A stretch of 51,606 bases of DNA from a virus. The stretch is from positions 1 through 51,606 of IMG/VR virus record IMGVR_UViG_3300036770_005494; one strand, given 5' to 3'. Below the pieces are notes generated by a model. That model saw nothing but the letters and a program-made list of their open reading frames with translations. It was not told the DNA's origin and searched no databases. The position numbers and the translations under genes were made by a program. This document shows positions 6,344 to 14,696 of this stretch, one piece after another. The number at the start of each line of letters is the position of its first letter. The stretch's first letter is position 1.

Positions 6344-6475
6344 ATGTTTAAAGTAAATTTTGTAGAAAAAGAATTTCCTGCAATTTCGTTGTTTAAAATT
6401 TTTAAGACAAAAGAAAAGGCAGATATCTTTATCAGTGAACTTGGTAATAACTTTGTATCAGTAAAAATCATATGA
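6344..6475 (+). CDS. very small protein, 43 residues, upstream of tmRNA
   Basis: A 43-codon ATG frame (MFKVNFVEKEFPAISLFKIF, then KTKEKADIFISELGNN and a hydrophobic end). AAAGGA sits 7 bases before the ATG, a good ribosome-binding site. It ends at 6475, immediately before the tmRNA acceptor piece, so translation would run right up to the structured RNA. Function unknown. The gene could be cotranscribed with the tmRNA precursor. Confidence 0.5.
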   Translation: MFKVNFVEKEFPAISLFKIFKTKEKADIFISELGNNFVSVKII

Positions 6476-6535
6476 TCGTATGAAGTTGATCGAAAGATGT
6501 TCTGGACGCGGGTTCGACTCCCGCCAGGTCCACCA

Positions 6536-6603
6536 TAAGTCAATTTGCAGACCGTGCCACACTCAGATAGAGAACGTACTGCAGGACGAAGTTGACTTAT
6601 GAT
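6536..6603 (+). other. intervening segment of permuted tmRNA precursor
   Basis: The segment between the encoded CCA and the mature 5' G of the coding piece. CATAAGTCAA (6534-6543) and TTGACTTATG (6592-6601) pair perfectly over 10 bp, stacking on the acceptor stem with one mismatch (C6533/A6602) and an A-U pair between them. The precursor therefore folds as one long hairpin that host tRNA-processing enzymes would open to release two RNA pieces. This is the expected design of permuted pre-tmRNA. Confidence 0.85.
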
Positions 6604-6690
6604 GGGCCTGTACTGGAATTCGACAGGGCAAGTAGTAGTGAGATGGACGATCCGGTAGGCGATGACCGTAAATCAAGCAAATCAATAGTC

Positions 6691-6735
6691 GCAAATGACG
6701 ATTATTTCACTCAGGATCTTAAGCTAGCTGCTTAA
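6691..6735 (+). other. tmRNA tag reading frame (ANDDYFTQDLKLAA)
   Basis: Fourteen codons from the resume codon GCA to TAA encode ANDDYFTQDLKLAA. The bases just upstream, ATAGTC, match the resume-site context of E. coli tmRNA (TAGTCGCAAACGAC). The AND start and the LAA end fit the standard degradation tag, with LAA expected to be read by ClpXP. The end of the frame lies in a hairpin, TTAAGC/GCTTAA (6719-6735), as in helix P5 of other tmRNAs. Confidence 0.9.
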
Positions 6736-6750
6736 ACCTGACGGGGTCTT

Positions 6751-6787
6751 CCTGGTTCATCCTTGTTCCCAAATGAACCAGGCTTTT
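6751..6787 (+). terminator. terminator-like hairpin after tmRNA
   Basis: A perfect 10-bp stem, CCTGGTTCAT (6751-6760) with ATGAACCAGG (6773-6782), encloses a 12-base loop and is followed by CTTTT. It is placed just after the tmRNA coding piece and 15 bases before the next gene's start, so it may define the tmRNA 3' end, terminate transcription partly, or both. The T-run is short, so read-through into the oxygenase and bilin genes is likely. Confidence 0.65.
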
Positions 6788-6801
6788 ATATGAGGACACG
6801 T

Positions 6802-7410
6802 ATGGCTTTTAAAGATAATTTATACGAAGTTGTAAAAGGCGCGGTTAATCCGGATGTACTTAATCATCTAGATATTGAATTTGAACTACTTCGGAAAGTG
6901 ATGTTTATTACTAATAAAATTCCCGATACACCTGAGAATGCTCATCGACTTAACGATGATCAAATAACAAATAGTTTTTCCTATTACTCTGCACTTTGTT
7001 TTGAAACCTTGGCACAAACATTGAAACCTACAATGGAAGAAGTTACCGGGTTAAAATTATATCCTACCTATACATATGCGAGAATATATTATAATGGTGC
7101 AGAAATGGCAAGACATACTGACAGGCCAAGTTGCGAATTTTCAACTACGGTTTGTATATCGAATGATGAGGAATTTGGACCATGGGATATCTGGTTTAAA
7201 TCTACTGAAGGTAAAGAATTTCCAATATGGTTAGAACCTGGGGATGCCTTAATTTATAAAGGTGATATTTTGGAGCACTGGAGAAATCCATATGATGGCA
7301 AGAGGCAAACTCAGGCATTTCTTCATTATGTAAATAAATTTGGTAAGTATAGGGATTATAAGTATGATAGACGACCATACATTGGACTTTCTTCTGACTA
7401 CAAACGATAA
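6802..7410 (+). CDS. second 2-oxoglutarate/Fe(II) dioxygenase
   Basis: A 202-residue 2OG-Fe(II) oxygenase-type protein. The likely iron ligands are H105-x-D107 (MARHTDRPS) and H159 (ILEHWRNPY), with R168 (GKRQ) in the 2-oxoglutarate position. The order and spacing fit the family, but the sequence differs clearly from the prolyl-hydroxylase-like protein at 3559-4176 and resembles a separate group found in T4-like marine phages. I start it at ATG 6802 because GAGG lies 6 bases upstream; the ATG at 6790 and a TTG at 6763 are in frame but the latter lies inside the tmRNA terminator hairpin. Substrate unknown. It is the first gene after the tmRNA and directly precedes the heme oxygenase gene. Confidence 0.83.
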   Translation: MAFKDNLYEVVKGAVNPDVLNHLDIEFELLRKVMFITNKIPDTPENAHRLNDDQITNSFSYYSALCFETLAQTLKPTMEEVTGLKLYPTYTYARIYYNGAEMARHTDRPSCEFSTTVCISNDEEFGPWDIWFKSTEGKEFPIWLEPGDALIYKGDILEHWRNPYDGKRQTQAFLHYVNKFGKYRDYKYDRRPYIGLSSDYKR

Positions 7411-7420
7411 GTATAATATT

Positions 7421-7948
7421 ATGAGTACACTAAAAGAATTAACAGCAGAGAAACATAAAGAAGCGGAAGCACAATCTTTTCTAAAATCAATATTTGCAGG
7501 TGAAGTTGATTACTTTAAATATGTAGATTACCTATATCAATTGCTCTACATTTATAGGGTATTAGAAGAATTAGGCGATAAAAAACTTATCTTCACAGGT
7601 ATGGAGTCCATTAAAAGAAGTAGCGCAATTGAACAGGATTATACAGAATTGATGGGTGACCCTCCTTATCCGGTAGTAAAACAAAGTACACAAGAATACG
7701 TAGACTATCTGTATACCATAGCAGATGATGGACCCAAATTACTCGCACATATATACGTTAGGCATATGGGCGATCTGTTCGGCGGACAACAGTTAGCAAA
7801 GTTGTTGCCTGGTCCCAATAACATGTATAAATTTGATAACATACCGGAACTAATTAAAGTGTTCCGAGCAAAGTGCGGGATAAGCCTTGCAGATGAAGCT
7901 AATAAAGCGTTTGACTACAACATTAAAATACTCAAAGAATATGATTGA
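7421..7948 (+). CDS. ho1: heme oxygenase (biliverdin-forming)
   Basis: Opens heme to biliverdin IX-alpha with release of iron and CO, using electrons from ferredoxin. The 175-residue protein starts MSTLKELTAEKHKEAEAQSF, where H12 is the expected proximal heme ligand, and has the distal helix GDLFGGQ (residues 117-123) in RHMGDLFGGQQLAK. The C-terminal LADEANKAFDYNIKI also fits the family. It is shorter than plant or cyanobacterial HO1 (about 240 residues), lacking a C-terminal extension, as in other phage versions. Its stop overlaps the bilin reductase start by 8 bases, so substrate maker and user are translationally coupled. Confidence 0.92.
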   Translation: MSTLKELTAEKHKEAEAQSFLKSIFAGEVDYFKYVDYLYQLLYIYRVLEELGDKKLIFTGMESIKRSSAIEQDYTELMGDPPYPVVKQSTQEYVDYLYTIADDGPKLLAHIYVRHMGDLFGGQQLAKLLPGPNNMYKFDNIPELIKVFRAKCGISLADEANKAFDYNIKILKEYD

Positions 7949-8615
7949 AGTGTGGCCACAAGTTCAGGCCATGTCTGAACGCATCATTCAAAAATTCGAC
8001 AAAAAATTTCAAGTACCCGTAGAAGAAGAATATCATATCGATGATCTAGATTTTACTTGGAAAAACTATGTATGGGAATCTCCTAAGTATCGCAGGGCCC
8101 ATATTGAAATAGTCGATGCGACTAAAACGAAAAAGATGTGGGTGATGCATATGTGCATCTTTCCTCATTACACCTGTCCCGATCCAATATTTGGTTTCGA
8201 TGTTGTTTGCGGTAAGAATAAGATAACAGGGGCATTCCATGATTTTTCCCATATAGGTAGATCTGATCTATATGACTGGTATCAATTTAAGATGGAGAAA
8301 CTAACTTGGAATAAACCGAGGGATCTCCCTGATTGGGCGAAGGCAATCTTTAGCCCACAGATGTTAGCTGCGGGCAATATACAGACTCAAGAAGAGATTA
8401 ATCAATTAATAGATACATCTATAGACAATCTAGATCATTACCTTTATAATGTAGGTAAGTACTCTGATGGTAAGGATTATCGAGAGCAACATAATTGGTA
8501 TTGCTACAATCAGAAGAGAAATCCTCATACTCCAGCAATGATGGTTAATTTTGGAGTCGATGGTAAGGTGTTTAATAAGTTTATGGATGATGTACTATTT
8601 CAGGAGTCAGAATGA
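7941..8615 (+). CDS. pcyX: ferredoxin-dependent bilin reductase, PcyA/PcyX type
   Basis: Reduces the biliverdin made by the upstream heme oxygenase to a coloured bilin. The 224-residue protein has RAHIEIV, KMWVMHMCIFPH and PIFGFDVVCGKNKITGAFHD followed by FS, the core of this reductase family. H54, E56, H70 and D87 fall where PcyA has H74, E76, H88 and D105, judged by eye. It is clearly not PebS, the cyanophage enzyme, whose sequence differs. From memory, a PcyA-related phage enzyme named PcyX, which makes phycoerythrobilin, was described from uncultured marine viruses; this gene fits that description better than PcyA because of phage context and pairing with ho1. The product (phycoerythrobilin or phycocyanobilin) cannot be read from sequence with certainty. 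The start ATG overlaps the ho1 stop. Confidence 0.88.
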   Translation: MIEVWPQVQAMSERIIQKFDKKFQVPVEEEYHIDDLDFTWKNYVWESPKYRRAHIEIVDATKTKKMWVMHMCIFPHYTCPDPIFGFDVVCGKNKITGAFHDFSHIGRSDLYDWYQFKMEKLTWNKPRDLPDWAKAIFSPQMLAAGNIQTQEEINQLIDTSIDNLDHYLYNVGKYSDGKDYREQHNWYCYNQKRNPHTPAMMVNFGVDGKVFNKFMDDVLFQESE

Positions 8616-10880: not shown

Positions 10881-10907
10881 ATCCCCGCGCAAGCGGGGAT
10901 TTTTATT
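10881..10907. terminator. bidirectional intrinsic terminator after gp32
   Basis: ATCCCCGC and GCGGGGAT form a perfect 8-bp GC-rich stem with the stable tetraloop GCAA, followed by TTTTATT on the + strand. On the - strand the hairpin is followed by ATTAATTTTA. It lies between the convergent ends of gp32 (+) and the tape-measure-like gene (-), whose stop codon overlaps the T-run, so it probably serves both. Confidence 0.88.
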
Positions 10908-12399
10908 AATATCTAATAACACCATTCTTTCTAAGATATGCCCCAACAGAGGGATTAGTATCTATAGAATTTGCATTCGGGAAAACCATAGGAGTTTGCT
11001 GTCCTCCCAATACATTGGTAGTATTAACTTGGGTATTCATATTTCCAGGGCTTCCCGACCCGCCCGAAGTTAAATCCTGATATTCTCTCATCGCGGAATC
11101 ATATATTCCTTGCAATAATCCGCCCATACCCTCAAACACATTAAACATTTCTTTACCTTCTGCATCCTTAATACTACCTAGCCCGAAAAGACTATCTTTA
11201 ATTTTTTTGCCGACTATATCTACCTTTTCTTTCGCAATTCCCATAAAATCTTTTAATGCTCCGTCCAATTCATCACCACCCTCTTGTAGATTTTTCGCAA
11301 AATCACCCATTTCTAATTTCGATTTTTCCATCTCAGCTTGTTCGATTAATTCCTGTTGCCTTGCTTCATAATATTTGTCAAATAGTTCCATTTTTGCATC
11401 TTCGCCGGCTTTTTGAATTCGTTTAGCTCCAGACCATTGGGAGTTTTGTATATCCTTTTCGGCAGCTTGGAGAGCTTTATTCATTTCTGAAATCATAACC
11501 ATTGGATCCGAAGCTTTGGATACGTTGTCTTGAGTTTCCTTATTTATTAGGTTCAATTCAACTGCTTTTCTATATCTACCTTTGGTTTCGGCCATATCCA
11601 AATTTGTTAACATTTCTTCATTCTGTTGCATACTTCTTCCGGCGAAGCCTGTACCAGCACGCAATAGTGCCTTCTTATTTTCTCTTTCTTCTATTGCATC
11701 CATAATATAATCTGTTCCAAATGTCCCAATCGTACCACCCGCAACCGCCGCGGCAACATATGGGTTCAACATCGCCGCCCCTGCTGCGCCCAATGCACCT
11801 CCCATTTTTCCTAATACTCCCCCGCCTATACCTCTTGCAATAGTAAACATGGCTCGTATTACTGCAGAAAACACTGGGCTAAGTAAGGAATACAATGTTT
11901 TTCCTATAGTTGTTACCACAGTTTTTAACCCACCTAATAATGCAGCAATGCCGGCACCAAATAATCCGGCACCTAACATTCCTTTTACTCCTGCCCCTCC
12001 TGTCGCGCTGCCAATTGCGCCAGCAATTGCTTGCGCTAACATTTCCCGATCTTTTTTCTTCTGTCCTTCTTCATAGGACTTTCGAATAAATTCAATATCG
12101 AGTCCTGTCTTTTGTGCTATATTTTTTGTTAACTTGGTTTCTTCAAAAGTCTTAAATTGTATCTCTTGGGCATTCATCCTAGTATTGCCCATTCTGGTGA
12201 ACGACTCAAGTATCTTTTTTATCGTAGATTTTTCTTGTTGGTCGTCTATGGTACGTTTATCTTTTCTAGTTTCGGTTTCTCTTTTGGTAAGACCTTCATC
12301 TCTCCTAGTCAAAGCTTTCGCTATGTTATCTAAAAGATTTTCTTGATTTCTTAAAGAAGTTAGAACTTCTCTATCGGTGATTGAAGGTAAATTTGCCAT
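10906..12399 (-). CDS. tape-measure-like tail protein (gp29 slot)
   Basis: A 497-residue protein with a charged coiled-coil N-terminal third, a long Gly/Ala-rich hydrophobic middle (residues about 125-235, including GAIGSATGGAGVKGMLGAGL and ALGAAGAAMLNPYVAAAVAG) and a charged helical C-terminal half. This organisation is that of phage tape measure proteins, which set tail length and enter the host membrane at infection. Its place directly downstream of gp26 and the gp51-like frameshift segment is the canonical position for a tape measure. It is shorter than T4 gp29 (590 residues). AAGGA lies 8 bases before the ATG. No clear sequence motif proves the identity. Confidence 0.62.
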   Translation of the reverse strand: MANLPSITDREVLTSLRNQENLLDNIAKALTRRDEGLTKRETETRKDKRTIDDQQEKSTIKKILESFTRMGNTRMNAQEIQFKTFEETKLTKNIAQKTGLDIEFIRKSYEEGQKKKDREMLAQAIAGAIGSATGGAGVKGMLGAGLFGAGIAALLGGLKTVVTTIGKTLYSLLSPVFSAVIRAMFTIARGIGGGVLGKMGGALGAAGAAMLNPYVAAAVAGGTIGTFGTDYIMDAIEERENKKALLRAGTGFAGRSMQQNEEMLTNLDMAETKGRYRKAVELNLINKETQDNVSKASDPMVMISEMNKALQAAEKDIQNSQWSGAKRIQKAGEDAKMELFDKYYEARQQELIEQAEMEKSKLEMGDFAKNLQEGGDELDGALKDFMGIAKEKVDIVGKKIKDSLFGLGSIKDAEGKEMFNVFEGMGGLLQGIYDSAMREYQDLTSGGSGSPGNMNTQVNTTNVLGGQQTPMVFPNANSIDTNPSVGAYLRKNGVIRY

Positions 12400-12594
12400 T
12401 TACTGTTCCTTTAATTTCTTTTGTGCTATTTTATTTTTTTCTTCTTGTAAATGATTTATTAACATTGTTACGTATATCTCTCTTTCCCAAGGTATCATAC
12501 TTTCTATTTCAGCTAATGAATAACTATGGTGTTGCATAAGTGAAAAATTTAACTGAAAATAATTTACGAGGGACTCATGGGAAAGAGTTAGCCG
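12400..12594 (-). CDS. 51: gp51-like segment, probably read by -1 frameshift from gp26
   Basis: A 64-residue frame follows the gp26 slippery site in the -1 frame: RLTLSHESLVNYFQLNFSLM, then QHHSYSLAEIESMIPWEREI and IYVTMLINHLQEEKNK to KEQ. The SLAEIESMIPWEREIYV part resembles short proteins annotated as gp51 in T4-like marine phages. The earliest ATG (12537) would give only 45 residues and omit the upstream part that looks like conserved protein. No start codon of any usual type follows the GGAGG at 12615-12611. The simplest reading is a gp26-gp51 fusion of about 295 residues made by frameshift, with free gp26 as the main product. Confidence 0.68.
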   Translation of the reverse strand, partial: RLTLSHESLVNYFQLNFSLMQHHSYSLAEIESMIPWEREIYVTMLINHLQEEKNKIAQKKLKEQ

Positions 12595-13286
12595 AAAAAA
12601 TTTTGCAGGCCCTCCACAACAATATTATTCTCGGTATTACAATTAGAACATACTGCACGTATATCTTGTTTTAATTTTGGCATCGTTATGAAGAAATTTT
12701 CTAACTTGTCAAACTGTGCTTTGGAAAATGAATTTACAAATTCGTCAATCTCTTCCTTGGTGTGATCCTCAAGTTTATAATATTCGTTTTCGGTATATAT
12801 TGTATCTATACACGAACAAACTAATTCTACAATTTTATCAGAATTCGCATCTTCAAAAATATCCAATACTTCTTTAAAATTCGGGTATCTCATCTCCAAT
12901 GTTATAGAATCATTTATCTTGATCTTATTTGTATGCTCGTTGTTTTTATGAACCTTTGCTTTAGTTATATCTACAACGTGTTCTATTTTATTTTGACAGT
13001 TTTTGCAGGTAATAATTGTGGTAGTATTTTCACCTATGGACTTCGCCCGTATATTTAAAAAGATGTATTCTATATCGAAGCTAGGCAACCTTGAAGTTTT
13101 TAGAGTTTTAAACGTACAAACATCTATAAGTTCTGTAACTATACGATAGATTTCCTCGGCATCTGATTCTAATGCCGTTAATAAAATTTTATATTCTTTA
13201 ACTAGGAAAGGTCGGTATTTTACTTTTTCGCCAGTTGAGGGCAAAATCAATTCATAGGTGGGTGTTTCTAATTTAGGTAAGGACAT
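12588..13286 (-). CDS. 26: baseplate hub assembly protein gp26
   Basis: A 232-residue homologue of T4 gp26 (208 residues), needed for assembly of the baseplate hub and not necessarily kept in the mature particle. It starts MSLPKLETPTYELILPSTGE with KYRPFLVKEYKILLTALE, typical of the family. Two CxxC pairs (TCKNCQ near residue 91 and VCSNCN near residue 217) suggest a zinc ribbon. GGAG lies just before the ATG. Its position between a tail-tube-like protein and a tape-measure-like protein is that of a tail assembly chaperone in other phages, and its 3' end carries a frameshift signal into the gp51-like frame. Confidence 0.83.
   Translation of the reverse strand: MSLPKLETPTYELILPSTGEKVKYRPFLVKEYKILLTALESDAEEIYRIVTELIDVCTFKTLKTSRLPSFDIEYIFLNIRAKSIGENTTTIITCKNCQNKIEHVVDITKAKVHKNNEHTNKIKINDSITLEMRYPNFKEVLDIFEDANSDKIVELVCSCIDTIYTENEYYKLEDHTKEEIDEFVNSFSKAQFDKLENFFITMPKLKQDIRAVCSNCNTENNIVVEGLQNFFG
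12594..12615 (-). promoter_or_regulatory. candidate -1 frameshift signal: GGAGG, 10-nt spacer, T TTT TTC
   Basis: Reading leftward, the gp26 codons AAT TTT TTC GGC TAA contain the slippery heptamer T TTT TTC (12600-12594) two codons before the stop. GGAGG (12615-12611) ends 10 bases before the heptamer, the spacing at which an internal Shine-Dalgarno sequence stimulates -1 slippage in bacterial dnaX. After slippage the next codon is CGG and the frame stays open for 64 residues. Confidence 0.68.
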
Positions 13287-13302: not shown

Positions 13303-14121
13303 TTAATTGATTGCGGTTACGAAAGGGTTTTGTGCTGCAGTGGGGGAATCTGCCTCACGCCGACCCGTAGTTGATGGTAACAGGGTAAATGTTTCTGTTT
13401 CATAAGATATATGCCCCTCGTTAAATATAACCGCCACCTTTCCTGATCTATCTACGGAAGGAACCATCTCAAGAGCCTTTTGAGGTATAACAGGCATGAT
13501 AGATTTATTTGCATCTGATCTGTCGGTTATTCTATCATCTCTATTAAATACTCTAGGATATCGAACTCGATTAGTTTTAATATGGGCGGGCGACCATTTT
13601 CTATAAGCAAAATTCACATTTATTCTATGGAATTGATTCTGAGTAGTATTATTTAAATCCATTATTGTTACACTACGAGGAAATGCATCTTGTATTTCTA
13701 CAGAATACATTATGTTATCATTATCATCCAACTGATGTACTCGTATATCTACGGAATACTCTCGTTGATAGTAAACAAAAAACTGAAAAGGATCTACAAC
13801 CTTACTTATCCAAGAATCAAAAAAAGCTTTGACATCCATTTGTCTATCTACAAGGAATGTCATAGGTATTCCTTCTCCTCCGTATTCTACACCAAATGGC
13901 CTTTGATATAGGGGACCATATATTCTTTGAGGACGCACACCGATAATCTGTGGGGGGAAACTTGCTTGTTCGCAAAACAAGTTTACTATTTGTATATCCC
14001 TTGAGAAGTAGTAACCTACAAGAGATCTGGGAATAGGCATTTCTATCTCAAATCTATTTGTTCTAGCAAGACCTCTCCGGGATACTTCTGCCTTAAATCT
14101 ATCTAGCGAAAAATTTGCCAT
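13303..14121 (-). CDS. tail-tube-like baseplate protein (gp54 candidate)
   Basis: A 272-residue protein of the tail-tube fold type, matching the marine-phage proteins that start MANFSLDRFKAEVSRRGLAR and contain RIYGPLYQRPFGVEYGGEGI. T4 baseplates carry two such tube initiators, gp48 and gp54; since gp48 is identified across the divergent promoter, this one is the best candidate for gp54, although it is closer in organisation to gp19. The end, NFAYRKWSPAHIKTN with a basic tail, fits. I start it at ATG 14121, which overlaps the upstream stop (TAATG), rather than at an earlier in-frame ATG inside the neighbour. Confidence 0.62.
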   Translation of the reverse strand: MANFSLDRFKAEVSRRGLARTNRFEIEMPIPRSLVGYYFSRDIQIVNLFCEQASFPPQIIGVRPQRIYGPLYQRPFGVEYGGEGIPMTFLVDRQMDVKAFFDSWISKVVDPFQFFVYYQREYSVDIRVHQLDDNDNIMYSVEIQDAFPRSVTIMDLNNTTQNQFHRINVNFAYRKWSPAHIKTNRVRYPRVFNRDDRITDRSDANKSIMPVIPQKALEMVPSVDRSGKVAVIFNEGHISYETETFTLLPSTTGRREADSPTAAQNPFVTAIN

Positions 14122-14696
14122 TAGAATCTCGATCCGTATTTTTTCTGAGTTTCTTTCCAAACATCTTGTTTGGAATCTTTTTGGAATCTTTCAATAGGCA
14201 ACATAGAAGCAGTTACCCAGTCATTAAATTCTATTTTTAAAAATCCCGTCTTTAAATGATTATTTAAGTAATGCTTTACACAAGCAGTTGCTGCAAGTAA
14301 CTTACTAGAGCCTTCTAATATCTGCCAAGATATTTTAATCCTTGCTGTTTCATTTACTGAGGTATCTGTTACCAATTTACTCAATTCTCCCAGCAGCCTG
14401 AACCGAGCCAAGTAAGGTAAGTAGTGCAGGTTTATACCTAAAAAGCCATTTGGCATTTTTCTAAAGGGAAGTACTAAGGGTAGAGTGTCGTAATATGGAA
14501 GTGTATCCTTGTGCTTTGGATCATACGCAAACAAGTACATGCTTCCCGGCATAACAGTTGAGGTAAGTTTTTTCTGCCTAAATAGCGCACTACTTTGGAT
14601 TCTTCCCAATGAATTTATTTGGCTCCTATACCACTGATACGATTTGTCGGCATCGCCAGCCTTCATACTTATGGTTCTAAAAATATCAGTAGGCAT
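14121..14696 (-). CDS. conserved structural or assembly protein, function unknown
   Basis: A 191-residue protein containing KSYQWYRSQINSLGRIQ, YLFAYDPKHKDTLPYYDTLP and FLGINLHYLPYLARFRLLGE. This layout, in which Trp-Tyr-Arg is followed by a Tyr-Asp-Pro-Lys segment and a PYYDTxPL segment, is one I recall from conserved proteins located next to gp4 in T4-like cyanophages, so it is probably part of head or tail completion. I cannot name a T4 counterpart with confidence; T4 has gp2 beside gp4, but similarity to gp2 is not apparent. It overlaps both neighbours, so it is part of the leftward late operon. Confidence 0.68.
   Translation of the reverse strand: MPTDIFRTISMKAGDADKSYQWYRSQINSLGRIQSSALFRQKKLTSTVMPGSMYLFAYDPKHKDTLPYYDTLPLVLPFRKMPNGFLGINLHYLPYLARFRLLGELSKLVTDTSVNETARIKISWQILEGSSKLLAATACVKHYLNNHLKTGFLKIEFNDWVTASMLPIERFQKDSKQDVWKETQKKYGSRF

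Follow-up and report, generated by a model that had tools for sequence, protein, structure and literature searches.

One gp26 gene of an uncultured T4-like phage very probably yields short and long forms of a tail assembly chaperone by -1 frameshifting

How is the gp51-like segment that follows gp26 in an uncultured T4-like phage translated, when it lies in the -1 frame and has no obvious start codon of its own? We addressed this question in a window of 51,606 nucleotides, the whole stretch of DNA analysed (IMG/VR virus record IMGVR_UViG_3300036770_005494, positions 1 to 51,606).

The -1 frame at the 3' end of gp26

On the minus strand, the genes run in the order head closure gp4, DNA end protector gp2, tail tube, gp26, (gp51) and a tape-measure-like gene, the ATG of which abuts the gp51 stop. 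The genes around gp26 are as follows:

13303..14160, minus strand: tail tube gene, directly upstream of gp26 (phrog_45 'tail tube', E=7.2e-34)
12588..13286, minus strand: gp26, putative short form of the tail assembly chaperone (TAC-N), 232 aa (PF12322, E=7.4e-63; phrog_150, E=1.4e-65)
12400..12594, minus strand: -1-frame segment (gp51, TAC-C), 64 codons plus stop (phrog_634, E=3.7e-27)
10906..12399, minus strand: tape-measure-like gene, 497 aa, named from its position and hydrophobic/coiled composition only

The position of the tape-measure-like gene directly after the gp51 segment agrees with the original prediction. A place between the tail tube and tape measure genes is one mark of a TAC pair, and gp26 occupies it, the downstream gene being tape-measure-like by position and composition only. 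The product of this gene had no match in Pfam, PHROG or NCBIfam, and an HMM built from its relatives reached neither T4 gp29 nor the Cr30 tape measure. The order tail tube, gp26, gp51 and tape-measure-like gene is common to the phages phiN3, EniLVp02 and D484.

Direct reading of the minus strand bore out that gp26 ends in AAT TTT TTC GGC TAA. The landmarks at this end, all read from the sequence, are the following:

12625..12627, minus strand: TAA, -1-frame stop and upstream bound of the gp51 frame
12611..12615, minus strand: GGAGG, internal Shine-Dalgarno-like element, 10 nt upstream of the heptamer
12594..12600, minus strand: T TTT TTC, candidate slippery heptamer, unchanged in 102/102 distinct cyanophage-type loci
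12588..12590, minus strand: TAA, zero-frame stop of gp26, one codon past the heptamer

The 3' end reads GGAGG GCCTGCAAAA TTTTTTC GGC TAA, with AAAA just ahead of the heptamer at 12604-12601 and GGC between the heptamer and TAA at 12593-12591, and the last zero-frame codons are CAA AAT TTT TTC GGC TAA. In the zero frame, T TTT TTC has the X XXY YYZ form of a programmed -1 ribosomal frameshift site. The predicted distance between GGAGG and the heptamer was correct, whereas the heptamer, thought to lie two codons before the stop, is separated from it by only one (GGC). A second heptamer, A AAT TTT, overlaps T TTT TTC, and a slip there would give the same product.

Reading in the -1 frame from the heptamer yields RLTLSHESLVNYFQLNFSLMQHHSYSLAEIESMIPWEREIYVTMLINHLQEEKNKIAQKKLKEQ. 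This frame is open for 64 residues, as had been claimed, its codons running from 12594 to 12403 and ending at TAA 12402-12400, and its residues match positions 58-118 of phrog_634 ('baseplate hub assembly catalyst', the gp51 family) with E=3.7e-27. Stop codons between 12594 and 12537, named beforehand as a sign against frameshifting, are absent. The claim that no start codon lies near GGAGG also held: no ATG, GTG or TTG was found in the -1 frame upstream of the ATG at 12537 (residue ~20), and this ATG has no Shine-Dalgarno sequence. Since the frame is closed upstream by the stop at 12627-12625 and has no such codon before 12537, gp51 has no obvious independent start. A gp51 start of its own in the window was considered as a candidate and rejected, no start codon being present before residue 20. 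The tryptic peptide across the fusion junction would be AVCSNCNTENNIVVEGLQNFFR. Since trypsin cuts after R, the junction peptide NFF-RLT originally suggested for mass spectrometry would require another protease or the use of this tryptic peptide.

Conservation among near and distant relatives

The relatives compared were 80 close and 80 S-PM2-like sequences from viral contigs, together with named phages. Distinct cyanophage-type (Kyanoviridae-type) gp26 3' ends with the stop directly after the site numbered 102, and every one of them has TTT TTC as codons -3 and -2, whereas Phe codons elsewhere in the same genes are TTT in 72% and TTC in 28%. The codon before this pair varies (AAT, TCT, AGT, GAT or GCT, for Asn, Ser, Asp or Ala), always ending in T. 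Past the site, the -1 frame is free of stops over 150 nt in all 112 loci examined, each of which has stops in the other two frames, and its divergence by codon position (0.36/0.18/0.55) is the pattern of coding sequence. Conservation begins at FFR, right at the slip site, which in most loci lies ahead of every start codon. Near the junction, 68 of 103 loci have no ATG, GTG or TTG, and in 36 of the 103 a -1-frame stop precedes the gp26 stop by at most 33 nt. Conservation of the slippery site and of the open frame in relatives, proposed earlier as a check, was thus found in this group. The heptamer and the open -1 frame are not due to chance. A short form with an apparent -1 frameshift extension towards the 3' end of the first ORF, a further mark of a TAC pair, was present in all cyanophage-type loci.

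The arrangement reaches well beyond this group. T TTT TT(C/T/A) stands one codon before the gp26 stop, followed by a gp51-like -1 frame, in Caulobacter phage Cr30, Aeromonas phage Aeh1, Agrobacterium phage Atu_ph04, the Vibrio phages vB_VmeM-32, XZ1, EniLVp02 and D484, Stenotrophomonas phage Moby, Delftia phage PhiW-14, Pseudoalteromonas phage XG4 and an IMG/VR contig. In Sinorhizobium phage phiN3, the site is AAT TTT TTT and stands two codons ahead of the stop. Pelagibacter phage Mosig (L092) keeps GAT TTT TTC, and its zero-frame stop is several codons further on, which would give its short form a longer tail than those of its relatives. Scans of viral contigs with gp26 of VmeM-32 and Atu_ph04 found no relatives.

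In Ackermannviridae, the site is ATT TTC, GTT TTC or GTT TTT, not the classical T TTT TTC. No ATG, GTG or TTG was found in the first dozen -1-frame codons of Kuttervirus, Taipeivirus and Miltonvirus members. Five Ackermannviridae loci (L090, L091, L103, L109 and L205) have a gp51-like -1 frame with neither the classical heptamer nor one of these start codons within the first dozen codons, and they carry ATT or ATC at the spot where the stop-overlapping ATG stands in Ds9CZ and VP-1.

Stimulatory signals and rival explanations

Upstream of the slip site, 67 of 114 distinct loci have a GAGG or GGAGG that ends 10 nt from the heptamer, and another 17 have GAAGG at 9 nt. Of 92 Glu codons at -8, 66 are GAG, compared with 21% elsewhere in the gene. 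This bias indicates that synonymous codon choice favours the Shine-Dalgarno-like element.

Downstream, the RNA of the window is predicted to fold into a 10-bp stem (12587-12578 with 12489-12480; -29.5 kcal/mol, z -4.45), the arms of which are:

12578..12587, minus strand: 5' arm of the long stem, CUCUUUCCCA, 6 nt past the heptamer
12480..12489, minus strand: 3' arm of the long stem, UGGGAAAGAG, inside the PWERE codons

RNA structure was scored as z against synonymous shuffles that used each locus's own codons, with a gene-wide positional control. At the slip site, a 114-nt segment had a mean z of -3.34 in 24 representatives of the clade to which our stretch of DNA belongs, against about -0.4 elsewhere in gp26, and a 42-nt segment had a mean z of -2.01 in 36 cyanophage-type representatives, against a background of about -0.2. 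Together with the GAG bias at -8, these two scores point to selection on the stimulatory elements. Compact hairpins, for example GCCCUC...GAGGGC or AGUAUGGCUCA...UGAGUCAUACU, occur in other cyanophage clades; the place of the downstream structure is conserved and its form is not, and in some loci it was not seen. The arms of the long stem are constrained by protein motifs as well, and covariation is slight, since arm positions are mostly invariant and a single sequence (L050) carries a double change from U-A to C-G. With so little covariation, the long stem rests on the synonymous-codon evidence. A short hairpin right after the slip site in the window was weak (z -0.47 and -1.1), and the long stem is the stronger candidate. 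An Rfam search of the junction gave no match. These results show selected RNA structure directly past the slip site and suggest, short of proof, that it has a function.

We then weighed other ways in which the gp51 segment could come about. If gp51 were a separate small gene with its own start, translated by reinitiation or internal initiation after the gp26 stop, its annotation as an ORF in GenBank records would be explained, and a suitable ATG does occur in places: 5 nt past the gp26 stop in the S-PM2 group, and overlapping this stop in Cr30, Atu_ph04, D484, XZ1, EniLVp02, Moby and PhiW-14. The heptamer is kept in these seven phages too, so both routes to gp51 are possible there. In the group of the window, by contrast, relatives with a clear gp51 start and ribosome-binding site, which the original prediction had named as evidence against it, were not found; this part of the prediction stood, and the overlapping ATG of some distant phages qualifies it. 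The first start in the window comes 20 residues into the conserved segment and lacks a Shine-Dalgarno sequence, the annotated starts are inconsistent across phages, and the heptamer is retained even where an ATG exists, all of which makes a separate gene improbable.

The fusion could also be made by transcriptional slippage at the six-T run rather than by ribosomal slippage, as polymerase slippage can occur at T or A runs. The run consists of just six T's, however, and always ends in C in frame, and the selection on the upstream GAGG and on the downstream RNA structure fits ribosomal frameshifting; we regard slippage of the polymerase as very unlikely. That the -1 reading is an unexpressed, decayed remnant of an ancestral in-frame fusion, or a sequencing error in one, is barely conceivable. 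T4-type phages do have an in-frame version (gp51), but the same frame relation recurs in 112 loci from many samples, with the frame open in all of them and a clear coding signature, and this reading is already contradicted by conservation.

Ribosomal slippage remains the explanation that we prefer: the single gp26 gene of this uncultured T4-like phage very probably encodes the chaperone in two lengths through a -1 slip at T TTT TTC. We infer the occurrence of slippage, its rate and the chaperone action. In the proposed mechanism, most ribosomes would stop at TAA and release gp26 (TAC-N), the short form of 232 residues. A minority would pause at T TTT TTC, held there by pairing of GGAGG with 16S rRNA 10 nt upstream and by the RNA stem 6 nt downstream, and a slip of one base back would give a gp26-gp51 fusion of ~295 residues (TAC-NC). 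If lambda gpG/gpGT are a guide, the N-terminal domain common to both forms would coat the tape measure protein, the product of the next gene, the gp51 tail would bring in tube subunits, and both forms would be absent from the virion.

It is possible, if on balance somewhat doubtful, that the downstream RNA element sets the frameshift in this mechanism and holds the ratio of long to short chaperone fixed across T4-like phages. Its place would have been kept and its form repeatedly replaced, with a ~100-nt long-range stem in the clade of the window and compact hairpins of 6-14 bp in other cyanophage clades, while Ackermannviridae would have given up the classical heptamer in favour of a weaker slip or a non-AUG start.

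Relation to T4 gp51 and to known chaperone pairs

Residues 1-201 of T4 gp51 (249 aa) match the gp26 Pfam family PF12322 (E=3.9e-52), and the C-terminus of this protein matches phrog_634. An HMM from 100 virtual fusions aligned with gp51 proteins of Tevenvirinae, and in several of these the alignment ran unbroken through the junction, whereas T4 gp26 aligned with the short part only. The PF12322 domain and the gp51 C-terminal segment that mark the T4 gp26/gp51 family were both found at the locus studied here. T4 gp51 consists of a gp26-like domain, in effect a full-length paralogue of gp26, and the gp51 segment and so corresponds to the frameshift fusion. T4, with gp26 as its short form, has both forms as separate genes, which lie on opposite strands, so that no frameshift is needed there. 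T4 gp51 is required for assembly yet absent from the particle (PMC3004832).

This correspondence bears on earlier annotation. A 2010 comparison reported cyanophage gp51 at ~20% of normal length, without the first ~200 residues, and no gp51 in Aeh1 (PMC3037559). Aeh1 does carry the gp51 segment, in the -1 frame after GAT TTT TTC GAC TGA and with no start codon. If gp26 supplies the ~200 residues by frameshifting, both the short cyanophage gp51 and its apparent absence from Aeh1 are explained. The starts annotated in GenBank give gp51 a length of about 30 codons in P-HM2 and about 44 in Mosig (lengths from coordinates), and there is none in DSL-LC03, apparently because the frameshift went unrecognised; many cyanophage gp51 genes as annotated are probably misannotated. 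In the records GU075905, MT647606, OR003938 and AY266303, gp51 is either unannotated or annotated from starts that disagree (about 30 or 44 codons).

The AlphaFold model of gp26 has a pLDDT of 88. Its N-terminal 84-94 residues matched 3fgx, 2ob9 (HK97 TAC) and 3klu (YqbN) with Z of 7.6, 7.3 and 6.8, values that the tool calls middling and that were obtained with a predicted model as the query; the next, unrelated structure had a Z of 3.4. We take 3fgx (rbstp2171) and 3klu, which are bacterial or prophage proteins, to be TAC relatives. The gap in Z and the shared identity of the top three matches make this middling match meaningful, and the modelled short form probably has a TAC fold, weak as the match is by absolute Z. 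Solved structures gave no match in a sequence search with gp26. A fold search with a T4-type gp51 model found no chaperone, a result that excludes nothing. The fold match and the gene order support the view that a chaperone pair of the G/GT type acts on the tape measure protein and, with the colinearity of T4 gp51, favour the original proposal that gp26 and gp51 form such a pair through -1 frameshifting.

In lambda, gpG/gpGT comprise a short protein and its -1 frameshift extension, encoded between the tail tube and tape measure genes, with G GGA AAG as the slippery site. The window has the same layout, as originally proposed, in the order tail tube, gp26/51 and tape-measure-like gene. It differs from lambda in its slippery site and in sharing no sequence family in the searches made, and gp26 has an added zinc-ribbon-like domain relative to gpG. 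The E. coli dnaX cassette consists of an internal Shine-Dalgarno 10 nt upstream, a heptamer, a short spacer and a downstream stem, all with counterparts here; unlike dnaX, the window has T TTT TTC in place of A AAA AAG, and its stem closes a ~90-nt loop with arms in coding motifs.

Vladimirov, Gautam and Davidson (Virology 2022, 566:9-15; pmid 34826709) reportedly identified the tail assembly chaperones of T4-like phages, and their abstract is said to name genes 26 and 51 and to describe frameshifting as conserved in several T4-like groups. As summarised in papers that cite this work, the genes and the idea are the same as in the window, with the long form made by poly-T -1 frameshifting in some groups. 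Separate short and long TAC genes in some T4-like phages are described in PMC10885494, and PMC12846349 gives poly-T as a known -1 signal in T4-like TAC-N genes. The idea of a frameshifted T4-like chaperone is already published, and the locus of the window is a further member. As the central idea is known, the gain lies in its confirmation in an uncultured clade and in RNA and family-wide detail; the downstream RNA structure and the Ackermannviridae variant may be additions to the published work.

Elsewhere in the window, positions 6427-6826 on the plus strand hold a permuted (two-piece) phage-encoded tmRNA (Rfam RF04321, 133 bits, E=6e-26), for which ARAGORN predicts the tag DDRKSSKSIVANDDYFTQDLKLAA. 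At 7340-8615 on the plus strand, a heme oxygenase gene (PF01126, E=4e-21) adjoins that of a ferredoxin-dependent bilin reductase (PF05996, E=8e-19) in overlapping frames, a bilin-making pair known from cyanophages.
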